A DNA stretch of 28,372 bases from a virus, in the IMG/VR virus record IMGVR_UViG_3300015360_000155, positions 1 through 28,372 of that record. One strand, written 5' to 3'. Of the stretch, positions 17,332 through 22,531 are shown piece by piece; positions within the stretch are counted from its first letter, which is position 1; every line of letters starts with the position of its first letter. The notes beneath the pieces were generated by a model. The model saw nothing but the letters and a program-made list of their open reading frames with translations, was not told where the DNA came from and made no database searches. Made by a program: the position numbers and the translations under genes.

Positions 17332-18576
17332 ATGACTATTGAAAGTGAAGTTTCTTCCGCGTTTTTTCTAGGTCCTAATACTTTAGGCCCGTATCAATGT
17401 AACTTTCACATTGAAAACGATACGGAAATCCAAGTGGTTGTTACCACGGCGGCTAACGTACAAACTACCCTAGTCTTAACGACGAACTATTACGTAGTCA
17501 GGGATATCGGCCCCGACGGCTTTAACCTGTATTTAAATATAACCTACGCTAACGACAGTACGTTGTACGTAGGTTTGAACTTGCCGTACACGCAAAGAAC
17601 CGACTTCCGCAATGAAGGGGAGTTTTCCCCCGAAACGCATGAAGTAGCTTTAGATAAAATGACGCGATTAGCCCAACAGCTAAAAGCGTTGTTTACTCGC
17701 GCGTTAAAACTGCCAGTGGGTTTTCCTTTCGTATCCGCTACCCTTCCGGCACCTTCTGCCGGTAAGTTACTCGGTTGGAGCCAAGACGGGGCTTCTATAG
17801 TCAATACCTCCGCGGTAGCCGTCGGAGCAGGCGCTATAGGTACTACTGAAATTGTTTCGGGCGCGGTTACGGCGAGTCGTTTAGCGGATGGCGCAGTAAC
17901 GTCGATCAAGCTTAACGACGCCGTGTTTTCTGGGCTAGTGGATGCCGGAACTATTCAGACGACGGATTACGTAGTCATCGCAGACGCTAGTAACTCATTC
18001 AATAAGCGAAAAGCTTTGGTGTCTGGGCTACCTATCGGTATTACCACTATCGGTCGTCATACTATATTTGAACCGGCGATGTCTATGCGTTCCCGTACGG
18101 CGAGTAGCGGACTAATTGTGGGTAACACCCCCGGTGGCGTAGGGCAACCTGACCGTACGGGGTTAGACTTTGATCAAACGACGCAGGAATTCGCCGAATT
18201 CATTATCGCTATGCCGAAGTCGTGGAATAAAGGAACACTGATCGCTAAGTTTCATTGGCAACCGATGGGCGGCGCTACTAGTCAGGGGGTGGTATGGCAG
18301 CTTTCGGCGTTAGCCGTAGGGGATACCGAAAGTACCGCGCAAGCGTTTGGAACGCCTCAACAAATAGCAGATACCTACGCAAGCGGCACGGCGGCTACGC
18401 TGTTCATAACCGCTGAAACTCCTGCGATCACGGTGGCAAACACTCCGGCTAATGGCGATTTAGTATTCTTCCAAGTGGCACGGTCCCCCGCGGATGCTGC
18501 GGACACCTTGGCCGCGGATGCTCGGTTGTTAGGGGTATCTCTCTACTACACAACTGACGCCGAGACGGACGCGTAA
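17332..18576 (+). CDS. Tail fibre protein with phage-binding N-terminal domain
   Basis: In this 414-aa protein, residues 1-130 follow the N-terminal anchor pattern of podophage fibres and spikes. They show VVTTAANVQTTLVLTTNYYV, a beta domain, then TQRTDFRNEGEFSPETHEVA and LDKMTRLAQQLKALFTRALK, which link the fibre to the tail. A short repeat region (GTTEIVSGAVTASRLADGAV) recalls the A-[IL]-x-D-G-A-V-T repeats of fibre shafts. The C-terminal 170 residues are beta-rich and end SLYYTTDAETDA; I could not assign them to an enzyme. It lacks the length of a full shaft, so the glycine-rich protein coded next may form its tip. It overlaps that gene as TAATG. Confidence 0.82.
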   Translation: MTIESEVSSAFFLGPNTLGPYQCNFHIENDTEIQVVVTTAANVQTTLVLTTNYYVVRDIGPDGFNLYLNITYANDSTLYVGLNLPYTQRTDFRNEGEFSPETHEVALDKMTRLAQQLKALFTRALKLPVGFPFVSATLPAPSAGKLLGWSQDGASIVNTSAVAVGAGAIGTTEIVSGAVTASRLADGAVTSIKLNDAVFSGLVDAGTIQTTDYVVIADASNSFNKRKALVSGLPIGITTIGRHTIFEPAMSMRSRTASSGLIVGNTPGGVGQPDRTGLDFDQTTQEFAEFIIAMPKSWNKGTLIAKFHWQPMGGATSQGVVWQLSALAVGDTESTAQAFGTPQQIADTYASGTAATLFITAETPAITVANTPANGDLVFFQVARSPADAADTLAADARLLGVSLYYTTDAETDA

Positions 18577-19442
18577 TGGTGTTGCGTGTAAATAACTTAA
18601 ACGGTATGGGCGATTTAGTCGCCGGTGAACCAGTGTCGTCTACGGGGCCAATCCCTGTAAACTTAGTAATTGGGGGTAACACTGTTAACTACAACGTGTT
18701 TACCGCTGCGGGTTCACCTGCGTACGACGTTGACGTAACGGTTACGATAAACCCCGGAGTTTACGTTTATTCAGCGAGTGCTAGTTTGTCATCTTTTCGT
18801 ACCGGCACCGGATGGACAGCAGGTTCAATTGTTCGCTTAGTAAACAACGGTAGCATATTCGGTACGGGTGGGTCCGGCGGCAACGGTGGCGGAACTTCGA
18901 CCAGTCCCACTACGGGCGGCGCAGGCGGTAGCGCAATACTCCTTGAAAAAGCTTTAGAAATTACCAACGCGGCGGGTTACATCTTCGGCGGCGGCGGCGG
19001 CGGCGGCGGCGGCGGGGCGGCCACGAACGGTAGTTTTTACGTAGGTGCAGGATCCGGCGGCGGCGGGGCCACGTATACGAGCGCACCCAGCGGGGCTAGG
19101 GGCTTAAGCTCCCCTGGGTACGGACTTGTACAGTCTACGGCGGGAAGTTCCGGTAATACGAGTGGAGGAGGCTCCGGCGGCGCGGGCGGGAACTCTGGGG
19201 AGATAAACAACGGCAGTAATGAAAGTCCTAATTTTGTAACGTTTATCGGCGGTAACGGCGGTGCGGCGGGTACTTTTGGCGCATCGGGGACGGCGGGTTC
19301 AGGGGGGCTAGCCAACGTTAACGCCTACGGCCAATCCGGGCAAGCCGCAGGCGCAGGCGGTAAAGCAATTAATTTAAACGGTTTTGTAGTTACGTTCTTA
19401 AGCGGTAATAACGGCTCTCAAGTGAAAGGTGTTGTGTCATGA
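18576..19442 (+). CDS. Glycine-rich receptor-binding adhesin
   Basis: In this 288-aa protein the first ~100 residues are beta-rich, with a strand-like segment (TVTINPGVYVYSASASLSSF) and RLVNNGSIFGTGG. From residue ~95 on it is dominated by Gly-Gly runs: a ten-Gly block near 138-147, GAGSGGGGATY, and GGGSGGAGGNSG. The Gly blocks alternate with short hydrophobic segments such as NAAGYIF and FVTFIGGNGGAAG. This resembles distal adhesins of the T-even gp38 type, in which polyglycine-II helices form a sandwich whose loops bind host receptors, though it is not clearly homologous. Location after the fibre and before a chaperone-like gene supports a receptor-binding role. Confidence 0.72.
   Translation: MVLRVNNLNGMGDLVAGEPVSSTGPIPVNLVIGGNTVNYNVFTAAGSPAYDVDVTVTINPGVYVYSASASLSSFRTGTGWTAGSIVRLVNNGSIFGTGGSGGNGGGTSTSPTTGGAGGSAILLEKALEITNAAGYIFGGGGGGGGGGAATNGSFYVGAGSGGGGATYTSAPSGARGLSSPGYGLVQSTAGSSGNTSGGGSGGAGGNSGEINNGSNESPNFVTFIGGNGGAAGTFGASGTAGSGGLANVNAYGQSGQAAGAGGKAINLNGFVVTFLSGNNGSQVKGVVS
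18987..19016 (+). repeat. (GGC)9-GGG trinucleotide run coding ten glycines
   Basis: Nine GGC codons (18987-19013) and one GGG (19014-19016) stand in a row inside the adhesin gene. Slippage by one unit would keep the frame and change only the length of the glycine block. Confidence 0.95.
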
Positions 19443-20155
19443 TTATTCTACGTTGGCAAAAAGACCGTGGACAACTACGCGACGCTAAAGGGGGCTATGA
19501 TTTTTTTGAAAAACCGGCGTTCTCTTTTAATTACAATAGCTTTAATTACGATCCAGTTGGCCGATATTACGACGATAACCAACCGTTAGACAAACGGCAG
19601 CAAGTAGAAATTGAAGCGTTTGCCTACGCAATACGGCGTGACCACCCCAATACGGTAGTTGCCGCCGACGTGGATAATAAGTTTATTGGTTGGGTTGACG
19701 TAGGCGACCCTAGAATTGGAAAGATAGTTCCGGTTGCACCGCCAACGGATGACCACTACGTTTTGGTAGGGGACAACGAATGGCGGTACGTCATCGCGGT
19801 AGATGCTCAAGGTAGCTATTTAGGTAACATAGACGCGTCAACCGAAGGCGTTACCTTGGTTGATACGCAACCGAATGACGTGAGGAAGCAGGTTTGGTCT
19901 TTTAGAAAGTCTACCTGGGTTGAACAACCCCTTGATCTCCGTACGTTACAACTGAATACTATGAGTCAGATCGATTCTTTGTTCAGCCCGTGCATTAACG
20001 CTGCTATATTGGCTGGCGACTACCGTAAAACGCCCTTAATAATCGCGACACGTGACGCGCGTAAAGAAGACGTAAAAACCGGAAGTACCCCCGCTGATAT
20101 GCGGATATTGATTAACCGCGCGACCAATGAGGCGCTTAGCTCTCCTGATGAGTAA
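19439..20155 (+). CDS. Fibre-assembly / tail-associated protein, chaperone-like
   Basis: This 238-aa protein starts in an ATGA overlap with the adhesin stop. The N-terminus has FSFNYNSFNYDPVGRYYDD. The middle contains a GNIDASTEGVTLVDTQPNDV element and VWSFRKSTWVEQP, similar in layout to tail-fibre assembly proteins, which end their N-terminal domain with W-x-x-x-x-W-x-x-x-P. The C-terminal third (LRTLQLNTMSQIDSLFSPCI, TPADMRILINRATNEAL) is helical, like the DUF4376-type tail of some fibre-assembly proteins. It probably folds or caps the adhesin coded just before it. This is inferred from pattern and gene order. Confidence 0.6.
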   Translation: MIILRWQKDRGQLRDAKGGYDFFEKPAFSFNYNSFNYDPVGRYYDDNQPLDKRQQVEIEAFAYAIRRDHPNTVVAADVDNKFIGWVDVGDPRIGKIVPVAPPTDDHYVLVGDNEWRYVIAVDAQGSYLGNIDASTEGVTLVDTQPNDVRKQVWSFRKSTWVEQPLDLRTLQLNTMSQIDSLFSPCINAAILAGDYRKTPLIIATRDARKEDVKTGSTPADMRILINRATNEALSSPDE

Positions 20156-21191
20156 ACGTTTAATCCACTATAGCCTTCCACTCGAAGGCTTAAGCCCCGA
20201 CATAGCGTCAATACTTCCACTGGTGCCCGGTACGCAATTAATAGATCGTACTGGTACGTTAAAAATGGGGCGTGACTTTAAATTCCTAGATGCTCTTCCG
20301 ACCTACACTACTAATAAATCCTTTGCTCAGATATGCGACGAACGCGCGCGCGAACTAGCCGCGCTAAACCACCCAATAGACCTATATTGGTCCGGTGGAA
20401 TCGATTCTACGGTGGCTTTGGTAGCCCTTATCAACGCAGGGGCGTCCGAACGTATTACCGTATGTCTTAATCGCGATTCGATTGTAGAATATCCGTTGTT
20501 CCATGCAAAACATATTAGCGGTAAGTTAACCGAACGGCTCGTACCGCCTACCGTAAAACTTGCCTGGCGTCCTGAACCGTTAACGGTTACGGGGGAACTG
20601 GGCGATCAGATTTTTGGTTCGGTGCTACTTAGTCGTTTTCGCGAATGGAAACCCCCTATTAACACCGCAGATTACGAGAGTAAGAAACACAATCTATTCC
20701 GCGCGTTCGACGAACCCTGGGAAAAGTGGGTTGGTGCCTTACTTCGTTCCCGTGGCGGGGATGAGGGCACCGCTATCGCTAATTTGACGCGATTAACGGC
20801 GAAAGCGCCTTTCCCTATTAAGAACTTTTTTGATGCCACTTGGTGGTTAAATATCACCTGTAAATGGCAAGATGCTACCTTGCGGTTCTTTAAAGATATC
20901 GACGTGACCGAAGAACAGTTTAGCCGGTGCCATCATTTTTTCCGCACTGATGACTTTCAAGCCTGGTCAATGACGGAAGAAAACCATCGCCATAATAAAA
21001 TCATCGTAAGCGGTCAACACCCTATCTATAAAACCTATAAATTTACCGCTAAAGACTACATTTACGCCTTCACCCGCGATCAGGACTACCGAGATAATAA
21101 AATCAAAGTAGGATCCTTACCGGCTGACGCAAACAACGTATACAAAGAGATGTTTGAAAACTTCACACGGGAGGGTAATGGACGTAATTAA
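20148..21191 (+). CDS. Stand-alone asparagine-synthetase-type PP-loop ATPase
   Basis: This 347-aa protein has a PP-loop ATP-binding motif SGGIDS at 82-87, in DLYWSGGIDSTVAL, and a second asparagine-synthetase-like motif TGELGDQIFGS at 148-158. The latter resembles the G-x-G-G-D-E-[LI]-F-G element that follows the PP-loop in AsnB. It lacks the N-terminal glutaminase (Ntn, Cys2) domain of AsnB, so it would need free ammonia or another amine donor. Such enzymes activate a carboxylate or amide with ATP, releasing AMP and pyrophosphate. The substrate is unknown. It overlaps the chaperone-like gene by eight bases and the cupin by 14. No clear ribosome site precedes the ATG at 20148, or the alternative at 20127, which fits re-initiation. 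QueC-type or WbpG-type PP-loop enzymes remain possible. Confidence 0.75.
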   Translation: MSKRLIHYSLPLEGLSPDIASILPLVPGTQLIDRTGTLKMGRDFKFLDALPTYTTNKSFAQICDERARELAALNHPIDLYWSGGIDSTVALVALINAGASERITVCLNRDSIVEYPLFHAKHISGKLTERLVPPTVKLAWRPEPLTVTGELGDQIFGSVLLSRFREWKPPINTADYESKKHNLFRAFDEPWEKWVGALLRSRGGDEGTAIANLTRLTAKAPFPIKNFFDATWWLNITCKWQDATLRFFKDIDVTEEQFSRCHHFFRTDDFQAWSMTEENHRHNKIIVSGQHPIYKTYKFTAKDYIYAFTRDQDYRDNKIKVGSLPADANNVYKEMFENFTREGNGRN

Positions 21192-21846
21192 GAATAACCA
21201 AGTTGGCGGTTTCCCAGGAGTAGACGATAGCGCGGTAATGGCCTTCCAAGCTGCCCTAGATAGCCCCAAAGACGTAACGCTATACATGGACGGGGCAACC
21301 TACTACGGCTTCGTAGTGTCCGGCGAATGGAACTATCGCGGCTTCCCCCTACAGCAAGGCGGCTACTTCGCTATTAAAGGGGGACCTGAAGTATCGTTAA
21401 ATGGGGTAGGTCGCTTAATTGTGTTCTTATCGTTTTCTGACGGTATGACGGTGTTAGGTGAAGCTATCGAAACGAGTGGACGCTTGCAGTACATCGACGG
21501 CTGTACGGATTCGCTATTGATTGCTCCGTTGAAATTCGGAGAACCATGCTTAAACGTGTTGTATTTTCCAAAGGATACGAATCAATCTTTCCACACTCAT
21601 CCGTCGTTACGCTTCGGTTGCGTAGCAAGCGGGTCGGGCGTTGCCTGCATTGGTAACGTTTTACTACCGCTAGAAGTAGGGGATGCTTTCCACTTACCAG
21701 CGGGGGAGTTGCATAGATTTAAAACTACAGATACTGAAATGGTTATAATCGCCTATCATCCTGACAGCCAGTACGGCCCAAAAGATGAAGATCACCCGAT
21801 GATCATAAGCACCCAGGTACAACCTTTAATCGCGAGGGCGATATGA
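21178..21846 (+). CDS. Cupin-domain (probable bicupin) protein
   Basis: In this 222-aa protein the C-terminal half is a clear cupin: SFHTHPSLRFGCVASGSGV (His139 and His141 as metal ligands), then PLEVGDAFHLPAGELHRFKT with His179 as the second-motif ligand. The N-terminal half (GFVVSGEWNYRGFPLQQGGY) looks like a second, degenerate cupin without a His pair. Cupins bind a metal and serve as dioxygenases, isomerases or sensors; the reaction here cannot be read. I chose the ATG at 21178, with GAGG at 21171-21174; a TTG at 21154 is an alternative. It overlaps the PP-loop gene by 14 bases and the next gene by four, so the two enzymes are made together within the late operon. Confidence 0.78.
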   Translation: MDVIKNNQVGGFPGVDDSAVMAFQAALDSPKDVTLYMDGATYYGFVVSGEWNYRGFPLQQGGYFAIKGGPEVSLNGVGRLIVFLSFSDGMTVLGEAIETSGRLQYIDGCTDSLLIAPLKFGEPCLNVLYFPKDTNQSFHTHPSLRFGCVASGSGVACIGNVLLPLEVGDAFHLPAGELHRFKTTDTEMVIIAYHPDSQYGPKDEDHPMIISTQVQPLIARAI

Positions 21847-22199
21847 TTAAAAAAATGACATCAAACGCCGAGCAGCCTTCTACCCCGCATCGTAGAGCAA
21901 CGGACGCATCTATGGAGAACGCGATTAAAAGCATTCACGTCTTGGTCGCGGTAGCAGCGTTTACCCTAGCTTTCCTTGGTCAAACAATTTACGTAGCTTA
22001 CCGAGCAGGCGAAATAACCCAAACGGTTACGCGCCTAGATAAGAGCATCGAACTTCTTCTAAAAGAAAAGTATACCCGTGAAGATTTCCAGCGCGATACC
22101 GGCCGCTTAGACGCGATGAACGCGGAACAAGACCGGAAGTTGATCGATCACGAAGCGCGTATCCGCGCCATGGAGTACCGTAGCTCCGTAGTTAAATGA
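21843..22199 (+). CDS. Single-span membrane protein of the lysis cassette
   Basis: In this 118-aa protein one hydrophobic segment (~residues 31-53, SIHVLVAVAAFTLAFLGQTI) follows a polar N-terminus. A long charged, probably coiled-coil tail (TVTRLDKSIELLLKEKYTRE, DRKLIDHEARIRAMEY) follows. A small N-in single-span protein just ahead of the endolysin could be a holin, antiholin or accessory lysis protein. An internal ATG at 21855 is an alternative start. It joins both neighbours by ATGA overlaps. I do not recognise a specific family. Confidence 0.65.
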   Translation: MIKKMTSNAEQPSTPHRRATDASMENAIKSIHVLVAVAAFTLAFLGQTIYVAYRAGEITQTVTRLDKSIELLLKEKYTREDFQRDTGRLDAMNAEQDRKLIDHEARIRAMEYRSSVVK

Positions 22200-22531
22200 G
22201 CGAACTACTACAAAAACAGTTCCGTTTTACCGAAATGACAGGTAAGCTCATCGCTTGGGCGTACGCTAATGGGTATACGCTAACCTACGGCGAAGCGTTG
22301 CGCACACCGGAACAAGCCAAGTTAAATGCGGCAAAAGGTAGCGGTGTATCAAATTCATTACATTTATCAAAACTGGCGGTGGACCTTAACTTATTTAAAA
22401 ACAGGAAATTTTTAAATAGGACAGAAGACCATACGCCGCTTGGTGAATATTGGGAAAGCTTAGGCGGAACCTGGGGCGGACGATTTAACGATGGCAACCA
22501 TTACTCTTTAGAGCATAACGGAGTTAAGTGA
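22196..22531 (+). CDS. Endolysin, M15-type D-Ala/L-Ala-D-Glu peptidase
   Basis: This 111-aa protein carries the M15 peptidase pattern. NSLHLSKLAVDLNLF places zinc ligands at His56 and Asp63 (S-x-H-x6-x-D), and FNDGNHYSLEH places the third ligand at His102 and the catalytic acid near Asp99. LTYGEALRTPEQA is also a usual segment of phage peptidases that cut the peptide stem of peptidoglycan. It has no signal peptide, so it needs the downstream holin to reach the wall. The start overlaps the previous stop (ATGA), and the end overlaps the GTG of the holin gene. Confidence 0.88.
   Translation: MSELLQKQFRFTEMTGKLIAWAYANGYTLTYGEALRTPEQAKLNAAKGSGVSNSLHLSKLAVDLNLFKNRKFLNRTEDHTPLGEYWESLGGTWGGRFNDGNHYSLEHNGVK

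Follow-up and report, generated by a model that had tools for sequence, protein, structure and literature searches.

What do a PP-loop protein and a cupin do among the late genes of a phage, encoded between a tail adhesin and an endolysin? The two genes lie in a window of 28,372 nucleotides, which is the whole stretch of viral DNA that was analyzed (the source record is a fragment of 28 kb). By the PHROG families of its head, connector, and tail genes, the window belongs among the epsilon15/phiV10-like podophages, and a tail protein of this group matches the window with 46% identity over its full length; a search with the 1916-aa virion protein returned no near relative of the phage. On the plus strand, positions 18576-22531 form a single overlapping series that encodes a Gly-rich adhesin, a 238-aa protein, the PP-loop protein, the cupin, a small membrane-type protein, and an M15 endolysin. 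The two open reading frames of interest, at 20148-21191 and 21178-21846, have the coordinates and overlaps that a preliminary description of the sequence had given them.

The series opens with a 288-aa tail adhesin-like protein (18576-19442; phrog_10745, E = 9.8e-16) that also matches phrog_11439 and phrog_2056 ("tail fiber; host specificity"). Its richest 80-aa stretch is 40% Gly, and it resembles the Gly-rich neighbors of PP-loop genes in other viral loci. The 238-aa protein that follows (19439-20155) was searched against Pfam, PHROGs, PDB sequences, and 50,697 phage records with no match, which leaves unconfirmed its earlier designation as a fiber chaperone; on position and look it is perhaps a candidate for a fiber-assembly chaperone-like protein. 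Its reading frame ends within that of the PP-loop protein, which starts at 20148, and the latter in turn overlaps the cupin ATG at 21178, with a Shine-Dalgarno-like GGAGGG (21170-21175, plus strand) ahead of this ATG and within the PP-loop gene. The cupin gene overlaps by 4 nt the first of the lysis genes, that of the small membrane-type protein (21843-22199; weak PHROG matches only), and the M15-family endolysin follows at 22196-22531 (PF13539, E = 4.2e-7; endolysin families phrog_1768, phrog_465, and phrog_2649).

The PP-loop protein (347 aa, 20148-21191, plus strand; hereafter PP) is, from its motifs and an AlphaFold model, a predicted ATP-dependent ligase resembling asparagine and β-lactam synthetases. 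Some 55 residues precede the PP-loop domain and no GATase match was found in the protein, hence it has no glutaminase domain, as the preliminary description had noted together with the motifs SGGIDS and GELGDQIFGS. Both motifs are mostly invariant among 44 phage and cellular relatives: in SGGIDS (residues 82-87, 20391-20408) Ser-82, Gly-83, Gly-84, Asp-86, and Ser-87 do not vary, and in GELGDQIFGS (residues 149-158, 20592-20621) the same holds for Glu-150, Asp-153, and Gly-157, with Gln-154 conserved in at least 90%. A C-terminal KxKxGSL motif (residues 318-324, 21099-21119) contributes the invariant Lys-318, Lys-320, and Ser-323, and Arg-34, Ser-111, Glu-114, Trp-232, Trp-273, Lys-298, and Lys-302 complete the set. 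Matched by eye, GELGDQIFGS appears to be the positional equivalent of the GEGxDE of asparagine synthetases, with Glu-150 and Asp-153 as its Glu and Asp, and Lys-302 and Lys-320 would correspond to the C-terminal Lys motif of those enzymes. Cysteine is absent from the invariant or nearly invariant positions, unlike the catalytic or zinc-binding cysteines of MnmA, ThiI, and QueC.

PP has no convincing family in Pfam, NCBIfam, or PHROGs and no match among PDB sequences. Of the profiles suggested in the preliminary description, Cupin_2 recognizes the cupin, but the asparagine synthetase C-domain (PF00733) does not reach its cut-off with the window PP or any of the 44 relatives (best E = 0.029), and for QueC there is a weak PHROG match to PP. 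When the PP profile is compared with Asn_synthase proteins, the PP-loop segment alone aligns (53 columns, 96% probability). Two loci contain full-length asparagine-synthase-type proteins adjoining cupin-PP pairs (L147:4523-6202, which carries GEGGD, and L148:4516-6207); their N termini (MFGFAG and MFSVVC) have no Cys at position 2, where glutaminases usually carry it.

The model of PP, built on a 21-sequence alignment (pLDDT 74, pTM 0.80), predicts the same fold as in the ATP-binding half of asparagine/β-lactam synthetases. Structural alignment ranks β-lactam synthetase highest (1mc1; Z 12.0, rmsd 4.7, 237 aligned), followed by human ASNS (Z 11.3, rmsd 3.6, 212 aligned), TsnB9 (Z 11.3), AsnB (Z 10.7), and carbapenam synthetase (1q19; Z 10.0), with GMP synthetase, LarE, and NAD synthetase behind this group. 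Foldseek alone gave no E below 0.001 against the PDB; against viral models it returned relatives bearing the name asparagine synthase. The term amidotransferase in the preliminary description is thus right in fold class, but because the glutaminase is absent the enzyme could equally be an amide or isopeptide ligase. That PP carries out ATP-dependent acyl activation is probable.

The cupin (222 aa, 21178-21846, plus strand) matches PF07883 Cupin_2 (E = 6.3e-9; 35.9 bits versus a cut-off of 27.2). The HxH of its putative metal site, His-139 and His-141 (21592-21600), the third putative ligand His-179 (21712-21714), and Cys-109 (21502-21504) are identical in 67/67 cupins paired with PP and in 22/22 cupins paired with a different PP-loop family, PAPS-reductase/DUF3440; the three-histidine site had been picked out in the preliminary description, and it and other key residues do not change with the partner. 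Among 57 distinct cupins, 24 share a locus with the asparagine synthetase-like PP and 22 with PAPS-reductase/DUF3440 PP-loop and ParB-like genes (the latter label is a by-eye reading of sequences that gave no Pfam match), and in none of the 57 loci do both PP-loop families occur together. Where the flanks are complete, 32 of the 37 cupins have some PP-loop partner. The DUF3440-type loci, found in other phages (within L154-L232, e.g. L195, L209, and L227), encode IbrA-like proteins with weak DndC similarity, and some additionally encode another PAPS-reductase-type protein along with a stand-alone GATase_6 glutaminase.

Single-sequence searches of IMG/VR found no close relative of PP and none of the cupin, so a degenerate DNA motif was used, which yielded 33 viral contigs; a PP relative is present in most of them, and in 16 it is joined by a relative of the cupin. 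Alignment-based scans raised these numbers to at least 505 viral stretches encoding PP relatives and 424 for the cupin. Across all loci fetched, from phages and bacteria, there are 67 distinct PP-cupin pairs, defined as lying on the same strand within 2.5 kb; 34 of them overlap or sit within 30 nt, with PP first in 45 and the cupin first in 22. The distance matrices of the two proteins correlate at 0.52, compared with a maximum of 0.13 over 2000 permutations, and the correlation drops to 0.14 for distant PP pairs. The cupin does not accompany every PP (28/75 viral loci in which 2.5 kb or more is available downstream). Recurrence of the two genes as neighbors had been proposed as a check on the idea of a joint pathway, and it bears that idea out; we consider it very probable that PP and the cupin serve one pathway.

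In cultured phages a PP relative occurs in 1 of 50,697 records, that of Pseudomonas phage Cygsa01, and is distant (∼25% identity); a search of cultured phages with a T4-like cupin found none. Cygsa01 (L001) encodes two distant PP relatives, annotated MnmA, near baseplate genes, with a Gly-rich protein alongside. PP paralogs form tandem arrays in L108 (up to five), L085, L014, L096, L049, L054, and L077, and in some they alternate with the gene that we call X. Two loci (L135 and L032) have two opposite-strand reading frames (231 and 228 aa) between PP and the cupin, perhaps an inserted element. An anti-phage defense system was also considered and rejected, as PADLOC profiles gave no match to PP, the cupin, or X.

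The pair is not confined to phages. GTDB contains 41 loci with PP relatives, many adjoined by the cupin, in hosts that include Tenacibaculum, Aquimarina, Lewinella-type bacteria, Planctomycetota, Sulfidibacter, Kaiserbacteria, and Bdellovibrio. Five whole genomes have one copy each of PP and cupin, side by side, and two Bacteroidota loci that we inspected lie in ordinary chromosomal surroundings with no tail genes. In two Bacteroidota groups totaling 449 genomes, PP is present in three and the cupin in exactly those three (2/150 and 1/299), two of the three being the chosen centers of the comparison. The pair is therefore sporadic, scattered among related bacterial genomes.

An association with adhesins or fibers, suggested by the preliminary description for this locus, recurs elsewhere. 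Gly-rich proteins are encoded within 3 kb of PP in 22 of 88 viral loci, the window itself (L002) being one of the 22, although their similarity is weak after low-complexity masking (best E 0.01). In unrelated baseplate-J phages the order is fiber, X, PP, small gene, cupin, and a 2OG-Fe(II) oxygenase (PF13640), and the order fiber-X-PP-cupin-2OG oxygenase recurs in the genome of Xanthomonas sp. GPE 39 (L135). In T4-like marine phages PP is not next to the fibers: it adjoins gp46/47 or is flanked by gp16 and gp17. A family-less N-terminal extension of ∼210 aa is fused to PP in seven loci (L003, L004, L007, L008, L013, L025, and L047) and their relatives, and these extended genes sit immediately after Gly-rich adhesins or cupins. 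Four loci (L151, L174, L175, and L222) have a radical-SAM gene (PF04055), a 116-aa gene, X, PP, and cupin in succession.

X adjoins PP in phage as well as cellular loci, and profile comparison relates its clusters from phages and from bacteria to one another (95, 88, 84, and 77%). Its model is confident (pLDDT 93.8), and the first 79 residues weakly match 5yvq_B of the Mu tail-fiber/chaperone complex (Z 3.7, rmsd 2.1 over 58 residues, 19% identity), a match far below a firm Z. A prefoldin reading of X was set aside, the matches being weak (E = 0.003) and mostly over a helical stretch. In the window the 238-aa protein occupies the place that X has in baseplate-J phages; hhalign related it neither to X nor to the ∼210-aa extension. 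Genes of transporter type are also seen near PP. A DctP-family solute-binding-type gene is found in L071, L084, L112, L040, L111, L096, L014, and L020 (the L084 translation has no obvious signal peptide), and SSF-type sodium:solute symporter genes adjoin PP in viral (L041, L088, L092, L098, and L102) and cellular (L122, L133, L136, and L140) loci, where Pfam shows SSF (PF00474) for the cellular cluster only and the viral cluster matches phrog_20720.

Given that dozens of unrelated phages, and some bacteria in their chromosomes, carry PP and the cupin together, we read them as a two-enzyme modification kit, and tentatively favor a mobile module that most likely acts on the tail adhesin or fiber. 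A joint modification pathway is suggested by the conserved acyl-activation residues of a protein that has no glutaminase, by the fixed residues of the metal cupin, and by oxygenase and radical-SAM genes nearby. In such a pathway the SGGIDS loop of PP would use ATP to adenylate a carboxylate, and PP would then link the activated group to ammonia or an amine, so that an amide or isopeptide bond forms. Either ahead of the PP step or following it, the cupin may act on this group through its three-histidine metal site. In the window phage both enzymes would be produced late, coupled to the adhesin, and the target would most likely be the tail adhesin or fiber, or an adjoining assembly protein, at virion assembly. 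The adhesin and fiber association recurs in unrelated phages, so a virion protein is the likeliest substrate, a choice we make with less than even confidence. More speculative again is the full reading, in which a previously undescribed ligase-cupin system, together with X and with 2OG-oxygenase and radical-SAM variants, chemically modifies tail adhesins post-translationally in many uncultured phages and has been borrowed by free-living bacteria.

Because of the transporters and the chromosomal copies, a small molecule stays the main rival. Here the two enzymes would make a modified amino acid, an amide, or a peptide-like metabolite, and the tail position would merely provide late expression. 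The SSF and DctP-family genes adjoining PP in several loci, the chromosomal pairs away from tail genes, the small-molecule synthetases as nearest folds, and the pathway-like tandem paralogs (up to five in L108) all agree with this. The adhesin or fiber neighborhood repeated in unrelated phages and the presence of X beside PP in both phages and cells speak against it, as does the window, in which there are no obvious further biosynthetic genes, and we regard a small-molecule product as rather unlikely. By analogy with other PP-loop enzymes, the pair might instead modify nucleic acid (a DNA base, the backbone, or tRNA), and the 22/57 cupin loci with PAPS-reductase/DUF3440 and ParB-like genes, their weak DndC similarity, and the weak QueC-type match of PP fit such a role. 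However, the PP fold is closest to carboxylate-amidating synthetases, the family does not have the conserved Cys of MnmA, ThiI, and QueC, and no modification genes were noticed in the window, which makes this explanation improbable.

O-antigen conversion is a known trait of epsilon15-type phages, and this, with an adhesin in the neighborhood, could suggest that the pair modifies the host surface or receptor. The preliminary description raised this idea as superinfection exclusion or receptor masking, for which we found no support: the run contains no glycosyltransferase or acetyltransferase, its position implies late rather than lysogenic expression, and the same pair occurs in bacteria without phage context. 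We consider such a role quite improbable. Viral "asparagine synthase" genes have been interpreted as auxiliary metabolic genes for nitrogen assimilation (PMC10465536), and database relatives of PP bear that name. We reject a genuine asparagine synthetase as very improbable, since PP has no glutaminase, all 44 relatives fall under the Pfam Asn_synthase cut-off, and PP is tightly coupled to a cupin; caution is warranted, as viral genes of this name do not necessarily serve nitrogen assimilation.

Returning to the module that we favor, if the adhesin is the target, phages would be adjusting the chemistry of their own receptor-binding tip. The recurrent PP-cupin link points to undiscovered chemistry in a family that, with at least 505 viral stretches and scattered bacteria, has no Pfam, PHROGs, or NCBIfam profile and is nearly absent from cultured phages. 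We found no paper that treats phage and cupin together with asparagine synthetase or PP-loop, and none, with the terms tried, on phage-encoded modification of tail fibers.

Several known systems share part of this arrangement. Lasso-peptide cyclases, asparagine-synthetase homologs of the McjC type, perform acyl-adenylate chemistry on a peptide carboxylate and have no glutaminase activity; PP would share the chemistry, but no precursor peptide or leader protease was seen here. BacB of bacilysin biosynthesis, among the best PDB profile matches of the cupin (E = 2.4e-4), has the Cupin_2 domain and HxH in common with it but other partner genes, and the present cupins have family-specific Tyr-105, Cys-109, Gln-136, Arg-145, His-194, and His-206. 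The phage pairs of the IbrA/IbrB type (PAPS-reductase/DUF3440 with ParB-like proteins) have the same cupin subfamily alongside, whereas their PP-loop belongs to a different family that never shares a locus with the asparagine synthetase-like PP. Mu gp50-type tail-fiber chaperones resemble, weakly, the N-terminal part of X, which follows the fiber gene in baseplate-J phages. Closest to PP are the C-terminal domains of AsnB, β-lactam synthetase, and carbapenam synthetase, with which it shares the predicted fold, SGGxDS, GExxDx, and the C-terminal Lys motif; it differs from them in having no glutaminase or glutaminase-like domain, in an identity of only ∼10% and escape from PF00733, and in its late phage context here and its coupling to a cupin.
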